Under the pieces are notes generated by a model, which worked only from the letters and a program-made list of their open reading frames with translations, was not told the origin of the DNA and did no database searches. The position numbers were made by a program, and so were the translations under genes. A stretch of DNA of 64,000 nucleotides from Frateuria edaphi (GTDB taxonomy: Bacteria; Pseudomonadota; Gammaproteobacteria; Xanthomonadales; Rhodanobacteraceae), in contig NZ_CP088251.1 of assembly GCF_021117405.1 (NCBI RefSeq), positions 2,852,001-2,916,000 of the forward strand, read 5' to 3'. Each line of letters starts with the position of its first letter. Positions within the stretch are counted from its first letter, which is position 1. Positions 950 through 33,636 of the stretch are shown piece by piece.

Positions 950-3900
950 ATGCCGGCAGCAGTACCCGACGATTTCCAGCCCGATCCCTCCCGTCATTCC
1001 TGGCTGGCGCACCTGCCGGTGCAGCGCAAGATGCTGCTGGTGATCGGCCCGCTGCTGCTGGTGTTCCTGCTCGCCAACCTGGCCACGCTCTACTCGCTGC
1101 AGGAGCAGACGGTCAATCGACGGTGGACCGAGCACACCTACCGGGTACTGCTCGCCATCGATTCGGTCAAGGACGCCATGCTGACCGCGCAGATCGGGGC
1201 CCGCGGCTACATGCTGACGCAGAGCAGCGCGGAGCTGGCCGGATTCGAGAAGGGCGGCCGCAGCCTGGCCTCCGGGTTCAGGCTGCTGCGTACGCTGACC
1301 ACCGACAACCCGCTGCAGCAAGCCAGGCTCGACCGCGCGGAGGTGCTGGCGACACGCTGGCAGCGCGAGATCGTCGCCTACGTGGTCACCCCGGCCAGCC
1401 GCGGCAGGATCGACGCCGGGGCGCGCGAGCGCATCCAGCAGGACTTCTTCGCCCACCGCACCGTCACCGCGCCGGACGTGACCGGCGTGCTGGCCCAGAT
1501 GGCGGGCACCGAGGAGGCGCTGCTGGCCGAACGCAACGCGCGGCTGCAGCGGACGCTGGACCTCATGCGGGTGTTCAACGCGCTGGCCGCCGCGCTCTCG
1601 CTGCTCTACGGGGCCTACGTACTGGAGCTCACCCGGCGCATCATCACCCGGCCGCTGCACCAGATGACCACCCTGATGTCCCGCCTGGCGGCGCACGACC
1701 ACTCGGTCACGATCACCCGCCAGGGCCGGCGCGACGAGATCGGCCAGATCGCGCGGGCACTGGAAGTGTTCAAGCGGATGGCGATCGGCTCGAGCGAGCA
1801 GAACTGGGTCAAGAGCGAGATCTCGCGACTGGTCCAGCGCCTGCAGCAGCTTGGCACGCACCGCGACTTCGGCGCTGCGCTCGCCAGCGAACTGGCGCCG
1901 CTGACCCAGTCCGGGGTTGCGCTCTATTACGGCTACGACGCCGCAAGCGAACGGCTGGACCTGCTCGGCAGCTACGGCCTGCGCCAGTCATGGAACCCTG
2001 CTGAAGCCTACGTGCCCGGTGAGGGCCTGGTCGGGCAGTGCGTGATCGAGCGCAAGCCGATCGCCCTGGACGAGGTGCCCGAGCGCTATCTGCGCATCCA
2101 TTCGGCCGCCGGCGAGGCCTCGCCCGGGCACGTGCTGATCCTCCCGGTGCTGTTCCGCGAGCGCCTGGTCGGCGTGCTGGAGCTGGCAAGCTTCAAGCCG
2201 CTGACGCCGTTGTGCCGCGAATTCCTGGAGGAGCTGCTGCCGATCGTCGCGCTCACCCAGGAAAACCTGACCCGCGCCATCGCCACGCAGGACCTGCTCG
2301 AGCAGACCCGCGAGCAGGCTGACCACCTGCGCCGATCCGAGGAAGCGCTGCGCCGGCAGCAACAGGGCCTGCGCGATGCCAACGCCGCCTTGCAGGCCAA
2401 GACGCGCGAGCTGGAGGAACAGTCCCAGCGCCTGACCGTCTCCGAAGAAGAACTGCGCGTGCAAACCGAGGAGCTGCAGGCGTCCAACGAGGAACTGCGC
2501 GAGAAGGGCGACATCCTCAAGCAGCAGAAGCAGGCGCTCGAAGCGCTGCAGCGCGAGACCGCACAGAAGGCGCTCGAACTGGAGCGCGCCAGCCAGTACA
2601 AGTCCGACTTCCTGGCCAACATGTCGCACGAGTTGCGCACGCCGCTCAACAGCCTGCTGATCCTCTCGCGCAGCCTGGCCGACAACGACGGCGGCAACCT
2701 GGACGAGGAGCAGATCGAGTCGGCGCGGATCATCCACGACGCAGGCGCAAACCTGCTGCGGTTGATCAACGACATCCTGGACCTGTCCAAGATCGAGGCC
2801 GGCAAGATGGAGCTGGTCATCGACGAATTGCCGCTGGCGGTGTTCGCACGCGCGCTCAAGCGCACCTTCGCGCACGTGGCGCAGGAAAAAGGCCTGGCCT
2901 TCGAGGTGCAGGTGGACGAAGGCATGCCGCCGGCGCTGCACACCGACAGCGCGCGACTGGAACAGGTGGCCAACAACCTGCTCGGCAACGCGTTCAAGTT
3001 CACCGCCCGCGGCGGCGTGCGGGTGCGCATCGGCCACCCGGGCCCGGAGACCCGCGTTCCCCCCGCCCTGCTCGGCCAGCCGCTGGTGGCGATCGAGGTG
3101 AGCGACACGGGCATCGGCATTCCGGCGGAGAAGTTCGAGCGCATCTTCCAGGCGTTCGAGCAGGTCGACGCAGGAACCAGCCGCCAGTACGGCGGCACCG
3201 GCCTGGGCCTGGCGATCTGCACGCGCATCGCTGCGCTGCTGGGCGGCGACGTCGTGCTGCGCAGCACCCCCGGCGAAGGCAGCACGTTCACCGTGCTGCT
3301 GCCGGAAACCGCCCCGTCCGTCGCCATCCCGCCCGCCCCGGCAACGCCCGCACCGGCGCCACGCACCCATACCAGCGCGTTGTTGCCCGAGGCGATCGAG
3401 GACGACCGCGACCGGCTGGCGCCCGGCGACACGGTCATCCTGCTGATCGAGGACGACCCCGCGTTCGCCCGCATCCTGGCCGACATGATCCGTCGCAACG
3501 GCCACCGCGTGCTGGCCGCCGCCGACGGCGAGAGCGGCCTGGCGCTGGCGCGCGAATATCGCCCCACCGGCGTGCTGCTGGACGTGATGCTGCCCGGCAT
3601 GGACGGCTGGACGGTCATGGAGCGCCTGAAGACCGACGACGCCACGCGACACATCCCGGTGCATTTCATCTCCGCCATCGACGAGGCCGGCCGCGGCCGG
3701 GAGCTGGGCGCCGTCGGCTTCCTCACCAAGCCGGTCAGCCGCGAGGCGATCAACGCGGCGTTCGAACGCCTGCTGCACTTTGCCGAAGGCAAGACGCGCC
3801 GGCTGCTGGTGGTGGACGACGATGCCGCCTCGCGCACCGCCGTGCGTTCCATGCTCCGGGGCGAAGGGGTGGAGATCGACGAGGCTGATTCGGCCGAAGC

Positions 3901-30970: not shown

Positions 30971-31966
30971 TCAGAGCTTGAACTCGATCTTCTTCTGCAG
31001 CTTCGCTTCCACGGGCGTGCCGTTGCGCGTGGCCGGCTTGTACTTCCAGCGTTCGACCGCGTTGACCGCCTCGCGATCGAACATGTGGCGCGGCTGTGCA
31101 TCGACCACCTGCACGCCGCCGACGTTGCCTTCGGTATCAACCGTGTAGCCCACCAGTACCCAGCCTTGCGTGCGCGTACGTTGCGCCTGGGTCGGGAAGC
31201 GCGGCTGCACATACTTGGTCATCACCGGCTCGGTCGATACGACCTGTTGCGCCGCCGGCTTGTTCGGCTCGGCGGTGGCCGGCGTGTTGGTCGCTGCAAC
31301 CGCGGTCGGCGCCTTCTGTTCGGACGGCTGCGCCTTCTGCTGGGTGGCGAGCTTGTCGGCGGCCGCCTTGTCCGCCGCGGCCTTGTCGGCTGCCAGCTGC
31401 TGCTGGCGCTGCTGCTCGAGCGCCTGCTGCTGTTCCTTGTCCAGCAGCTTGCGCTGGGCATCGAGCTTGGAGCGCAGGATCGTCAGCGTGTAGTTGGCCG
31501 GGTCGGCCTTCGCGAGCAGGTCGATCTCGCGCTGCGCCTCATTGAAGTCGCGCCCGTTGATCGCCTGCTCGGCGCCGCTGGCTGCGAACGGGAAGGTTTC
31601 GCGCAGGGCGTCGGTGGCCACCGGGTTGCCCGGCTGCTTCTCCAGCGCTTTGAGGTAGAACTCGAATGCGTTGTTGCCGGCCGGCGCAAGCACGCGATGG
31701 TCGTTCATCGCCTTGCGCGCCTCGGCCAGCAGCTGGTTCAAGTCCATCGCCTCGACGTTGGCGGGCGGCGCCACGGCGATCTTGTCGGTGGACACCGGGG
31801 TGGACGGATGCCCGCCACCGTCCTGCATGACCAGCTCCTGGTGCGGCTGCAGGATCAGGAACCAGCTGGCCACGGCCAGCAGGACGAAAATGGCGATAAC
31901 GGCAATCAAGGTGGGGCGGGCGGCCCCGCGCGCGCGTGCGCGCATAGATCTGGTACGGGTATCCAT
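30971..31966 (-). CDS. TonB-family energy-transducing protein
   Basis: A 331-residue protein with a basic N-terminus and one membrane helix (about 17-38, AVIAIFVLLAVASWFLIL). A periplasmic helical region with tetratricopeptide-like segments (EFYLKALEKQPGNPVATDAL) is followed by a long Gln/Ala/Lys coiled coil. The C-terminal TonB domain has YPxxA-like PRFPTQAQ, GWVLVGYTVDTEGNV and RWKYKPAT. It would couple proton-motive force to outer-membrane receptors or play a TolA-like role. No exbB or exbD is adjacent. The start is either 31966 or 31990. Confidence 0.85.
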   Translation of the reverse strand: MDTRTRSMRARARGAARPTLIAVIAIFVLLAVASWFLILQPHQELVMQDGGGHPSTPVSTDKIAVAPPANVEAMDLNQLLAEARKAMNDHRVLAPAGNNAFEFYLKALEKQPGNPVATDALRETFPFAASGAEQAINGRDFNEAQREIDLLAKADPANYTLTILRSKLDAQRKLLDKEQQQALEQQRQQQLAADKAAADKAAADKLATQQKAQPSEQKAPTAVAATNTPATAEPNKPAAQQVVSTEPVMTKYVQPRFPTQAQRTRTQGWVLVGYTVDTEGNVGGVQVVDAQPRHMFDREAVNAVERWKYKPATRNGTPVEAKLQKKIEFKL

Positions 31967-32139
31967 GGGACGTTCACCATTGGCTGGCATGAGATACCCG
32001 CGCTTTTTCCCCCTGTAGGAGCGGCCGTCCCCCTGGACGTGCGCGGCGCGAGTGCGCACAAGTTACCGCCAATGCGCCGTTGCGGCAAATACGGAAGCCT
32101 CGGTCGGAGACCTGCATTTTCCCGCCCCCGAAACGAAGC

Positions 32140-32204
32140 GTCCCGGCCGGGGCCGGGACGAATCGCTCTTCGAAGTACCCTCCCTGCGCTGGGCACCGCA
32201 GGGA
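32140..32204 (-). terminator. Hairpins downstream of the MetJ-H1 fusion gene
   Basis: Read leftward from the fusion gene stop, two hairpins occur: TCCCTGCG/CGCAGGGA (32181-32204) and GTCCCGGCC/GGCCGGGAC (32140-32159). The second is followed by the moderately T-rich GCTTCGTTTC. Probably a weak intrinsic terminator. Confidence 0.4.
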
Positions 32205-32243
32205 GAGAAAGTCGATACCGCTTGTTGGTCTTCTAGAAAAAAC

Positions 32244-32774
32244 TTACTTCTTGGCCTTGGCGGTCTTGGTGGCCTTGACCACCTTGGCCGGCGCAGCCTT
32301 CTTCGGGGCCGCCTTCTTGGCGGCAACCTTCTTGACGGCAACCTTCTTGACGGCAGCCTTCTTGGCGGCGGCCGGCTTCTTGGCGGCAACCTTCTTGGCG
32401 GCCGGCTTCTTGGCGGCGACCTTCTTGGCGGCCGGCTTCTTGGCAACCGGCTTCTTCGCGGTGGCCTTCTTCACAGCAGTCTTCTTGGCGGGCGCCTTTT
32501 TGGCGGCCGGTTTCTTCGCAGCGGTTTTCTTGGCAGTGGCCATTCGTCTCAGCTCCTCATCAGTTGGCAGTGGTTGCCCAGTAAAAGCGTGCAGGAACGC
32601 CTCAACCAGCAAGTCGCTGTTGGTGGCGTGCCGAAGATTGTTCACTTGACGGCGGGTGCGCTCGTCGGAAAGCAGACGCAGGACATGCAGCGGAATCGAC
32701 ACGGTGATCTTGCGCACCGCGCCGGCCTTCTCGCCGTGATCGACATAAGGCGTTATGAATTTCGATGCAGCCAT
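32244..32774 (-). CDS. metJ: MetJ-type methionine repressor fused to a histone-H1-like Lys/Ala tail
   Basis: A 176-residue protein in two parts. Residues 1-78 match the MetJ ribbon-helix-helix repressor: the DNA-contacting strand KITVSIP (22-28), [17 protein letters not shown] and [13 protein letters not shown]. This includes the Arg, Glu, His and Phe positions that bind the co-repressor SAM in E. coli MetJ. Residues 79-176 are only Ala, Lys, Pro, Val and Thr, with 17 Lys-Lys pairs in a near five-residue period (AAKKP/V). This is like the C-terminus of AlgP or histone H1-like proteins. Ordinary MetJ (about 105 residues) ends soon after the core and has no such tail. The ATG at 32774 is fixed by the MetJ alignment. 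Expected role: SAM-dependent repression of methionine genes, with extra non-specific DNA binding or compaction. Confidence 0.9.
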
Positions 32775-33240
32775 GTGGACCCGTTCCCCTGATCTGAAGC
32801 GAAAGCTATTCCTGAAGATTTCAACTGTCAATTGATTTCGACCAGAAAATTCGACCGGTCGAAAGCCCGTCCCGGAGGCCGCAAAGGGCCGCGCGGCAAG
32901 GGTTGGCGGATTAACCGTGGCATTTATAAATGGACGTATAGACGGCCATATAAAATAACAACGCAAATGACCAGCACCCCGCAAAGCCTTGCTCCACAAG
33001 GCTTCGCGCCATATCGATGGCTTTGCCCGAGCGCGCGCGACGCGCACCGCAACGGTACGCCAGAGCAGTCCCGCGGGAGCAGCGGGAGCCCTCGTTTCGA
33101 ATGAATGGAAGTCGACCAGCCGCACGATCGACGGCGATGATCGATCACCTCGGAGGCTCCCGGATCGCACCTTCCGGGCAGCCAGCAGATGCCGGCGAGC
33201 CGCTCGTGCGCCGCCGGCGGCGGCGCACGACGATGGACCG
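32775..33240. other. Intergenic region upstream of the MetJ-H1 gene, with an AT-rich island
   Basis: No convincing gene is seen in these 466 bases. An AT-rich stretch at 32915-32965 stands out from the GC-rich flanks and probably holds the promoter of the MetJ-H1 gene (minus strand). The candidate met-box repeats lie inside it. The remaining 33000-33240 portion looks unremarkable. Confidence 0.5.
32932..32947. promoter_or_regulatory. Candidate tandem met-box operator
   Basis: Two adjoining 8-mers, GGACGTAT and AGACGGCC, each match the palindromic met-box consensus AGACGTCT at 6 of 8 positions. MetJ binds tandem met boxes as adjacent dimers. The site is in the AT-rich island about 160 bases upstream of the MetJ-H1 start, so it could mediate autoregulation. 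Matches are modest, and chance occurrence cannot be excluded from one site. Confidence 0.4.
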
Positions 33241-33636
33241 TCAGTGGTCTTCGTTCTCGATCTGCTCGGCGTACGCGTCGGCATCGAGCAGTTCGTCCAG
33301 CTCGGCGCGATCGCTGATGCGCACGGCGAAAATCCAACCGTCGCCGAAGGCGTCTTCGTTGATCGTCTCGGGCTTGTCGTTGAGCAGCTCGTTGACCTCG
33401 ACGATCTCGCCGGACACCGGCGAATAGATGTCCGACGCGGCCTTCACCGACTCGACCACGGCCACGCCGGTGCCGGCCTGCACGCTGGCGCCGATCTCCG
33501 GCAACTCCACGTACACCAGGTCGCCCAACTGACCCTGCGCGTGGTCGGAGATGCCCACGCGCACCACGCCGTTGTCTTCGACGCGGGCCCACTCGTGGGA
33601 TTTGAGGAACTTCAGGTCGCCGGGAATCTCGCTCAT
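33241..33636 (-). CDS. gcvH: Glycine cleavage system H protein
   Basis: A 131-residue lipoyl carrier of the glycine cleavage complex that shuttles the aminomethyl group between the P, T and L proteins. The lipoyl-Lys lies in [13 protein letters not shown]. The flanking beta-strands and the ESCHARGED end (NEDH) are as expected. It lies downstream of gcvT on the same strand (84-base gap), so they are probably one operon. gcvP is not in the window. Confidence 0.96.

Follow-up and report, generated by a model that had tools for sequence, protein, structure and literature searches.

Does one gene of Frateuria edaphi encode a methionine repressor, a histone-like protein, or both? The window analyzed here, a 64,000-nt stretch of F. 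edaphi DNA, contains a metJ gene that a first-pass annotation had read as a MetJ repressor joined to a histone H1-like tail, with the idea that a single polypeptide combines SAM-sensed methionine control with chromosome compaction or DNA bridging. We find that the MetJ core and the H1-like tail are kept together across the family, as that reading held. A single bifunctional polypeptide is probably an incomplete account, however, because evidence at the nucleotide level points to two products. We think it likely that one frame encodes two proteins: a SAM-type methionine repressor that carries an H1-like tail, and the tail alone, made from an internal start.

A MetJ core joined to a lysine/alanine tail

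The proposal that MetJ and the Lys/Ala tail form one polypeptide is borne out by a single 176-residue frame whose profile scores lie above their cut-offs (Table 1). The Pfam MetJ model (PF01340) matches residues 5-85 of the fusion at 126.2 bits, with a cut-off of 25, and the NCBIfam equivalog model for MetJ (NF003622) scores the fusion protein at 130.3, with a cut-off of 110. E. coli MetJ crystal chains align without gaps over residues 4-85, or over residues 4-77 when the core is the sole query, and the region of the SAM pocket aligns closely to E. coli MetJ. Lys22 and Thr24, the counterparts of the base-contacting Lys23 and Thr25 of E. coli MetJ, are invariant in all 24 aligned sequences (the window's own plus 20 with and 3 without a tail). 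In one clade (loci L031-L037) the SDERT motif reads SDLRT. The Glu that is replaced by Leu corresponds to E. coli MetJ Glu39, near the SAM site, and the response to SAM may be different in this clade.

MetJ ordinarily has about 105 residues. The full MetJ length and the C-terminal helix are absent from the fusion: the Pfam match ends at model position 85 of 97, the core extends to E. coli residue 78 and no further, and about 26 C-terminal MetJ residues are replaced by tail. The tail begins at Met78, and its 99 residues comprise 38 Lys, 36 Ala, 10 Val, 8 Pro, 6 Thr and 1 Met, with no acidic residues and a net charge of +38. The first-pass count of 17 Lys-Lys pairs was correct, but its division into 78 and 98 residues was off by one; it named no strand and had not picked up the frozen codons described below. 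The Pfam HC2 model scores the tail at 36.7, below its cut-off of 40, and H1-like NCBIfam models give 38.3 (cut-off 80) and 29.5 (cut-off 135). Because these scores fall below the cut-offs, we call the tail H1-like by composition and do not count it as a member of those families. The AlphaFold2 model has very low confidence over its whole length (mean pLDDT 51.7, pTM 0.22). HupB and AlgP offer analogies that make it plausible for the tail to compact or bridge DNA. Two more Lys/Ala-rich proteins are encoded in the F. edaphi genome, one of 204 residues (L057, positions 1534-2148, minus strand) and one of 277 residues (L058, positions 1033-1866, minus strand), and a free tail would thus not be the sole H1-like protein of this genome.

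Table 1. Features of the metJ locus and its surroundings, in window coordinates.
Feature	Position	Strand	Basis
TonB-C-domain protein directly downstream of the fusion gene	30971-32059	-	
GC hairpin followed by T-rich stretch, possible terminator 3' of the gene	32139-32160	-	1 found vs 1.7 expected in shuffles (weak)
metJ-H1 fusion gene, 176 aa	32244-32774	-	single ORF, ATG to TAA
Lys/Ala tail beginning at the in-frame ATG (99 codons and the stop); putative free H1-like protein	32244-32543	-	composition; HC2/H1-like scores below cut-off
In-frame internal ATG, proposed free-tail start	32541-32543	-	same place in 85/86 loci
GAGGAG, proposed internal Shine-Dalgarno sequence, 9 nt ahead of the ATG here	32553-32558	-	85/86 loci
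45-nt nucleotide-frozen junction element within MetJ codons	32544-32588	-	synonymous difference, identity
Coding RNA hairpin, codons +26 to +41	32589-32636	-	MFE z, covariation
MetJ core, residues 1-77	32544-32774	-	Pfam and NCBIfam MetJ; E. coli MetJ chains 1cma/1mj2
TTGACA-N17-TAGCTT, promoter-like, of metJ	32802-32831	-	conserved block in upstream alignment
Tandem met boxes (GGCCGTCT ATACGTCC), proposed MetJ operator	32927-32950	-	upstream of metJ
gcvH, upstream neighbor	33241-33636	-	Pfam, NCBIfam

PF01340 is found in 39 of 61 relatives, namely in all 37 sampled genomes of the window's family (f1) and in 2 of 24 from elsewhere in the order. Among 299 genomes drawn from the order, 96 have MetJ: 76 from f1, 13 from f9, 6 from f12 and 1 from f8. 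MetJ-bearing reading frames in this draw are at least 137 residues long in f1 and 80-88 residues long in f12. We read 86 tailed loci by script, which represent 84 of 85 matched f1 genomes (G229 was left out), Dyella choica and one MAG. The search across the order that the first-pass annotation had proposed recovers MetJ with Lys/Ala tails, in these 86 loci. MetJ of the neighboring families f12 and f9 is tailless, the former ending near ...DEELARPE and the latter in a short polar stretch, neither of them rich in Lys and Ala. At the f8 locus, the script's search for the core found none. Named relatives account for at least 17 loci; the two that were read for tails, D. choica (locus L040; Rhodanobacteraceae, placed in Lysobacterales at NCBI) and the MAG, are both tailed. 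In a plasmid collection, 15 records match the fusion protein, none with coverage of 80% or more, and the eight matches listed cover residues 3-77 only.

Tail length ranges from about 40 to 310 residues, and a stop codon is reached in 85 of the 86 tailed loci, the remaining one (L041) running off its contig. The longest tail, of about 310 codons in L076, has an AK fraction of 0.63. A frameshift or assembly error, raised at the outset as a way in which the tail could be spurious, is rejected. The core and the Lys/Ala-rich tail share one intact frame in 86 of 86 tailed loci, which makes chance or an assembly error an unlikely origin. The neighborhood is also largely kept: 79 of the 86 tailed loci have gcvH upstream in the same orientation, in line with the synteny that the first-pass annotation had proposed to check, and gcvH was not found within the sequence stretch examined in the other 7. 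A relative of the TonB-C-domain protein lies downstream of metJ in 32 of the 86 loci and was not found within the stretch examined in 54.

Frozen codons and a coding hairpin at the junction

Constraint on codon choice was measured in 84 distinct MetJ cores, with columns numbered relative to the beta-strand KK/RK. We used the synonymous pair difference, which is how often two genomes code the same residue by different codons. Columns +42 to +63, which hold the last 15 MetJ codons and the first codons of the tail, give a value of 0.143, compared to 0.488 in the remaining columns. Resampling codons within each gene gave a null value of 0.568, with a minimum of 0.533 over 300 runs. The kept codons, GCT TTT ACT GGG CAA CCA CTG CCA ACT GAT GAG GAG CTG AGA CGA, are mostly AT-ending; of the 15 columns from +42 to +56, 10 have a third-position GC of 0-0.17. 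Arg55 is encoded by AGA in all 82 loci that have Arg at that position, and Lys63, beyond the internal ATG, is encoded by AAA in 70 of 71. Identity to the 45-nt consensus averages 0.976 in tailed loci, the lowest value being 0.756 (L028); it is 0.60-0.73 in six tailless f12 loci, compared with 0.80-0.89 for control blocks of the same size. The frozen DNA at the junction suggests that the tail is also produced as a separate protein.

A search with the 34-nt core of the element, allowing up to 3 mismatches, found it in 215 of 233 family genomes and 24 of 26 genera, and the reversed control gave 0 among the matches listed. Eighteen family genomes lack the element at this threshold. One of them (G010, locus L028) is the one clear loss: it has no GAGGAG, GTG replaces the ATG and other codons are used, yet the fusion is kept. 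This locus comes from the single species of its genus in the set, and its retention of the fusion without the Shine-Dalgarno (SD) sequence and ATG means that the short product would not be universal. A second genome (G020, locus L012) carries the element at 0.87 identity. Among the other 16, nine have MetJ above the cut-off, and eight of these nine carry the element at 0.84-0.89 identity together with a tail; the locus of the ninth is cut by a contig end. A further genome (G443) has only a MetJ fragment that scores below the cut-off, and the remaining six, which are 79-93% complete, have no match.

The junction element occurs once in the F. edaphi genome, and a recurring DNA site is thereby ruled out. 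An Rfam search of positions 31900-33400 (E ≤ 5) gave no match at the junction; likenesses to a hammerhead, a SAM riboswitch and a C/D box were weighed and dropped. The folding energy of the junction alone is ordinary compared to dinucleotide shuffles. One genome (G346) has the element twice, exact both times (C1:260227 and C1:5312231), which could reflect duplication or an assembly overlap.

The coding RNA hairpin has a mean MFE z of -3.08 relative to synonymous resamples, with z below -2 in 87% of 84 loci, while control codons +3 to +18 give z of +0.24. Third positions pair with third positions in its stem. Covariation in the hairpin is 0.673, whereas 300 within-column permutations of synonymous codons give 0.254 (sd 0.039, maximum 0.358). 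In 73 distinct rows, 50 cells are altered on both sides of the stem; shuffles give 27 and slid controls 0-20. Counted by pairs, those with any two-sided change number 5, which is no clear excess: shuffles average 3.6, 44 of 500 reach 5, and a slide of -3 gives 6. Parsimony on a tree of gcvH and the metJ core (77 loci) counts 8 paired-to-paired double changes in the hairpin, compared to 1-4 in five slid controls. It also counts 31 paired-to-unpaired changes, and the stem is thus not inviolate. One subclade (L005, L010, L029, L077, L089, L090 and L092) lacks the outer stem and keeps the frozen block. The folding energy of tailless f12 loci is -5.2 to -12.2 kcal/mol, compared to a mean of -18.5 kcal/mol.

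When run on the alignment, RNAalifold picked another, partly overlapping structure. This alternative and an SD-sequestering helix (GCUUUU:GAGGAG) both fit the sequences, and covariation tests of the two found none; we regard them as possible structures that are not supported. A quite doubtful extension is that the covarying hairpin and the frozen 45 nt, in which GCUUUU can also pair with GAGGAG, form a riboregulator that would sense a signal and set the ratio of fusion to free H1-like protein, so that a SAM-autoregulated gene would couple one-carbon metabolism to nucleoid packing.

A candidate internal start and rival readings

The proposed start of the free tail combines several features of a translation start. 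The spacer between GAGGAG and ATG is 12 nt in 80 loci and 9 nt in 5, F. edaphi included; a 12-nt spacer exceeds the usual optimum, which counts against the start. The computed energy of pairing with the 16S anti-SD sequence averages -7.4 kcal/mol at the internal ATG (83 loci); metJ's own start gives -4.4 kcal/mol (84 loci) and other core codons -2.2 kcal/mol (sd 2.5). RNA structure around the internal ATG is 4-6 kcal/mol weaker than in synonymous resamples (50-nt windows, 40 of 84 loci), and the folding z over +42 to +64 averages +1.36 in 84 loci, that is, less structured than the synonymous null. The first-pass annotation had considered that the MetJ part might be expressed alone; these patterns point instead to the tail being expressed alone, besides the fusion, and we infer that this second product arises from an internal translation start. 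In two f12 loci (L038 and L039), the stop of the tailless metJ (GAGTGAGC) overlaps the likely GTG start of the next gene, which by eye is glycosyltransferase-like, and GAGGAG lies just upstream of that gene in L038. In f12, this position may provide the ribosome site of a different gene.

Could the fusion protein be the only product? The tail would then raise non-specific DNA affinity, and the frozen codons would act as an mRNA element for stability, processing, sRNA pairing or pausing at the domain joint. All 86 loci have the fusion, including L028 with its missing ATG and GAGGAG, and AT-ending codons at a domain boundary could cause pausing. Moreover, the frozen block begins about 45 nt ahead of the tail codons, which exceeds the needs of an ordinary ribosome site, and part of the constraint may hence come from another RNA function. 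However, pausing calls neither for the GAGGAG and in-frame ATG that 85 of 86 loci share, nor for strong anti-SD pairing, nor for weak structure. The codon that precedes the ATG is free to vary (Thr, Asp, Ile, Ala or absent), and the element is single in the genome, hence no common protein or sRNA site. We consider it unlikely that the fusion is made by itself.

An internal promoter within metJ that transcribes the tail separately would also yield a free tail. The frozen block is placed where such a promoter would be expected, and TTTACT-N17-TGATGA has promoter-like spacing, but TGATGA is poor as a -10 element and the block extends through the ATG into tail codons, as for a translation start. 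A plain consensus scan of positions 32000-33250 found no sigma-70-like site, though the same scan also failed to list metJ's own TTGACA-N17-TAGCTT block. This origin of the tail is very improbable. A shift into the +1 frame, or a short overlapping frame, that ends in TGA or TAA at the junction and yields a tailless MetJ or a leader peptide would predict the same freezing, since frozen frame-0 third positions are +1 second positions, and CTG, CTA and TTA at Leu54 all create a +1 stop before AGA, but we discount it almost entirely: CTT in L012, L111 and L112 leaves no such stop, neither a conserved start codon nor a usual slippery site was noticed by eye, and AGA and AAA are frozen around and beyond the stop.

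Proposed regulon, mechanism and known systems

In 66 of the 86 loci, tandem met boxes with up to 4 mismatches precede metJ by about 160-270 nt, with 0 for the reversed control; no upstream double box was found at this threshold in the other 20. With at most 1 mismatch allowed, an 18-nt double box is present in 24 of 25 f1 genomes; of 16 other genomes, one has it, the MetJ-bearing G047 of f12. In the F. edaphi genome, a tolerance of up to 3 mismatches yields 52 forward and 56 reverse matches, compared to 9 and 12 for the reversed pattern.

The neighbors of these sites were examined in 46 site-bearing loci, a subset of all matches, and 10 proteins (including the unrelated L057) were compared to NCBIfam. 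The predicted operators at met genes are tandem AGACGTCT-like boxes. MetX is encoded beside met boxes in L153, L145 and L172 (the last in F. edaphi) and MetB in L151, from the neighboring family f12, all above the NCBIfam cut-offs. The N-terminal part of MetE lies beside met boxes in L149, where the sequence ends, and scores below the cut-off. An aspartate kinase is found in L152 and an aromatic aminotransferase in L163 (F. edaphi); the metX and aminotransferase sites of F. edaphi have 2 mismatches each. The neighbor in L148 is a TonB receptor that is BtuB-like at sub-cut-off scores only. The remaining sites lie inside genes or near genes with no known methionine link. A GC3 heuristic placed 16 of the 46 loci inside reading frames, at least two of them (L145 and L152) apparently wrongly. 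In L172 (F. edaphi 2846902-2846927), three met boxes, with mismatches, lie between metX and a divergent dioxygenase-like gene, which is a possible further MetJ target. The met boxes suggest continued function of the core as a methionine repressor.

With two products from one frame, the locus would operate as follows. The ribbon-helix-helix core of the fusion would bind the tandem met boxes ahead of metJ and the methionine genes, presumably in response to SAM, and the positively charged, presumably disordered tail would add non-specific DNA affinity or bridging to the fusion. The internal ribosome-binding site and internal ATG would give an H1-like protein of about 99 residues. GAGGAG would sit in the weakly structured frozen stretch, which the hairpin would set off on its upstream side. 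MetJ, acting through the upstream boxes, probably represses its own promoter, and the amounts of both products would therefore track SAM/methionine status. If the internal start is real, one frame would supply a metabolite repressor and a histone-like protein and link the SAM level to chromosome packing; if the tail is also a separate protein, methionine sensing would be linked to DNA packaging.

The frozen junction with internal start signals, the coding hairpin with its covariation, and the met boxes at metJ and at met genes are new here. We found no paper in the open-access literature on a MetJ with a histone H1-like or lysine-rich C-terminal tail, and database annotation of such proteins may well exist. 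Table 1 of one survey lists no MetJ in 4 Xanthomonadales genomes (PMC4239095), and a statement on one Xanthomonas strain reads 'metJ is missing' (PMC6230763), while a passing remark elsewhere describes the MetR/MetJ system as apparently conserved there (PMC7270179). Here, MetJ in an unusual form, with met boxes at metX and metE, is present in 37 of 37 sampled genomes of the window's family.

The fusion resembles E. coli MetJ in its core, which aligns ungapped to 1cma over residues 4-85, and in the tandem met boxes at metJ, metX, metB and metE. It differs in that a Lys/Ala tail, about 40-310 residues long, takes the place of about 26 C-terminal residues, and we know of no nested frame in E. coli metJ.

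Other systems share parts of this arrangement. Like HupB and HupS, in which HU carries an H1-like tail, the fusion joins a folded DNA-binding domain to a tail of PAKK/KAAK type, and the mycobacterial HupB tail is described as indispensable for nucleoid association (PMC5676037). The HU head is architectural, whereas the head of the fusion is predicted here to be a ligand-gated, sequence-specific repressor; the abstract of the HupB article mentions no nested product (PMC5676037). AlgP of Pseudomonas and Hc2 of Chlamydia are similar in composition and in the repeat-driven variation of tail length (PMC9239181, PMC2848022), and the AlgP C-terminus is reported to matter for granule spacing (PMC9239181). 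Unlike the MetJ tail, which scores below the HC2 and H1-like cut-offs, they are encoded by separate genes. The long and short forms of SpaO offer a parallel to a nested product, in that the C-terminal part also exists as a shorter, in-frame variant (PMC13059759). SpaO, however, is a secretion-platform protein, whereas the frame described here is proposed to give a repressor and a chromatin-like protein and contains a coding RNA hairpin.
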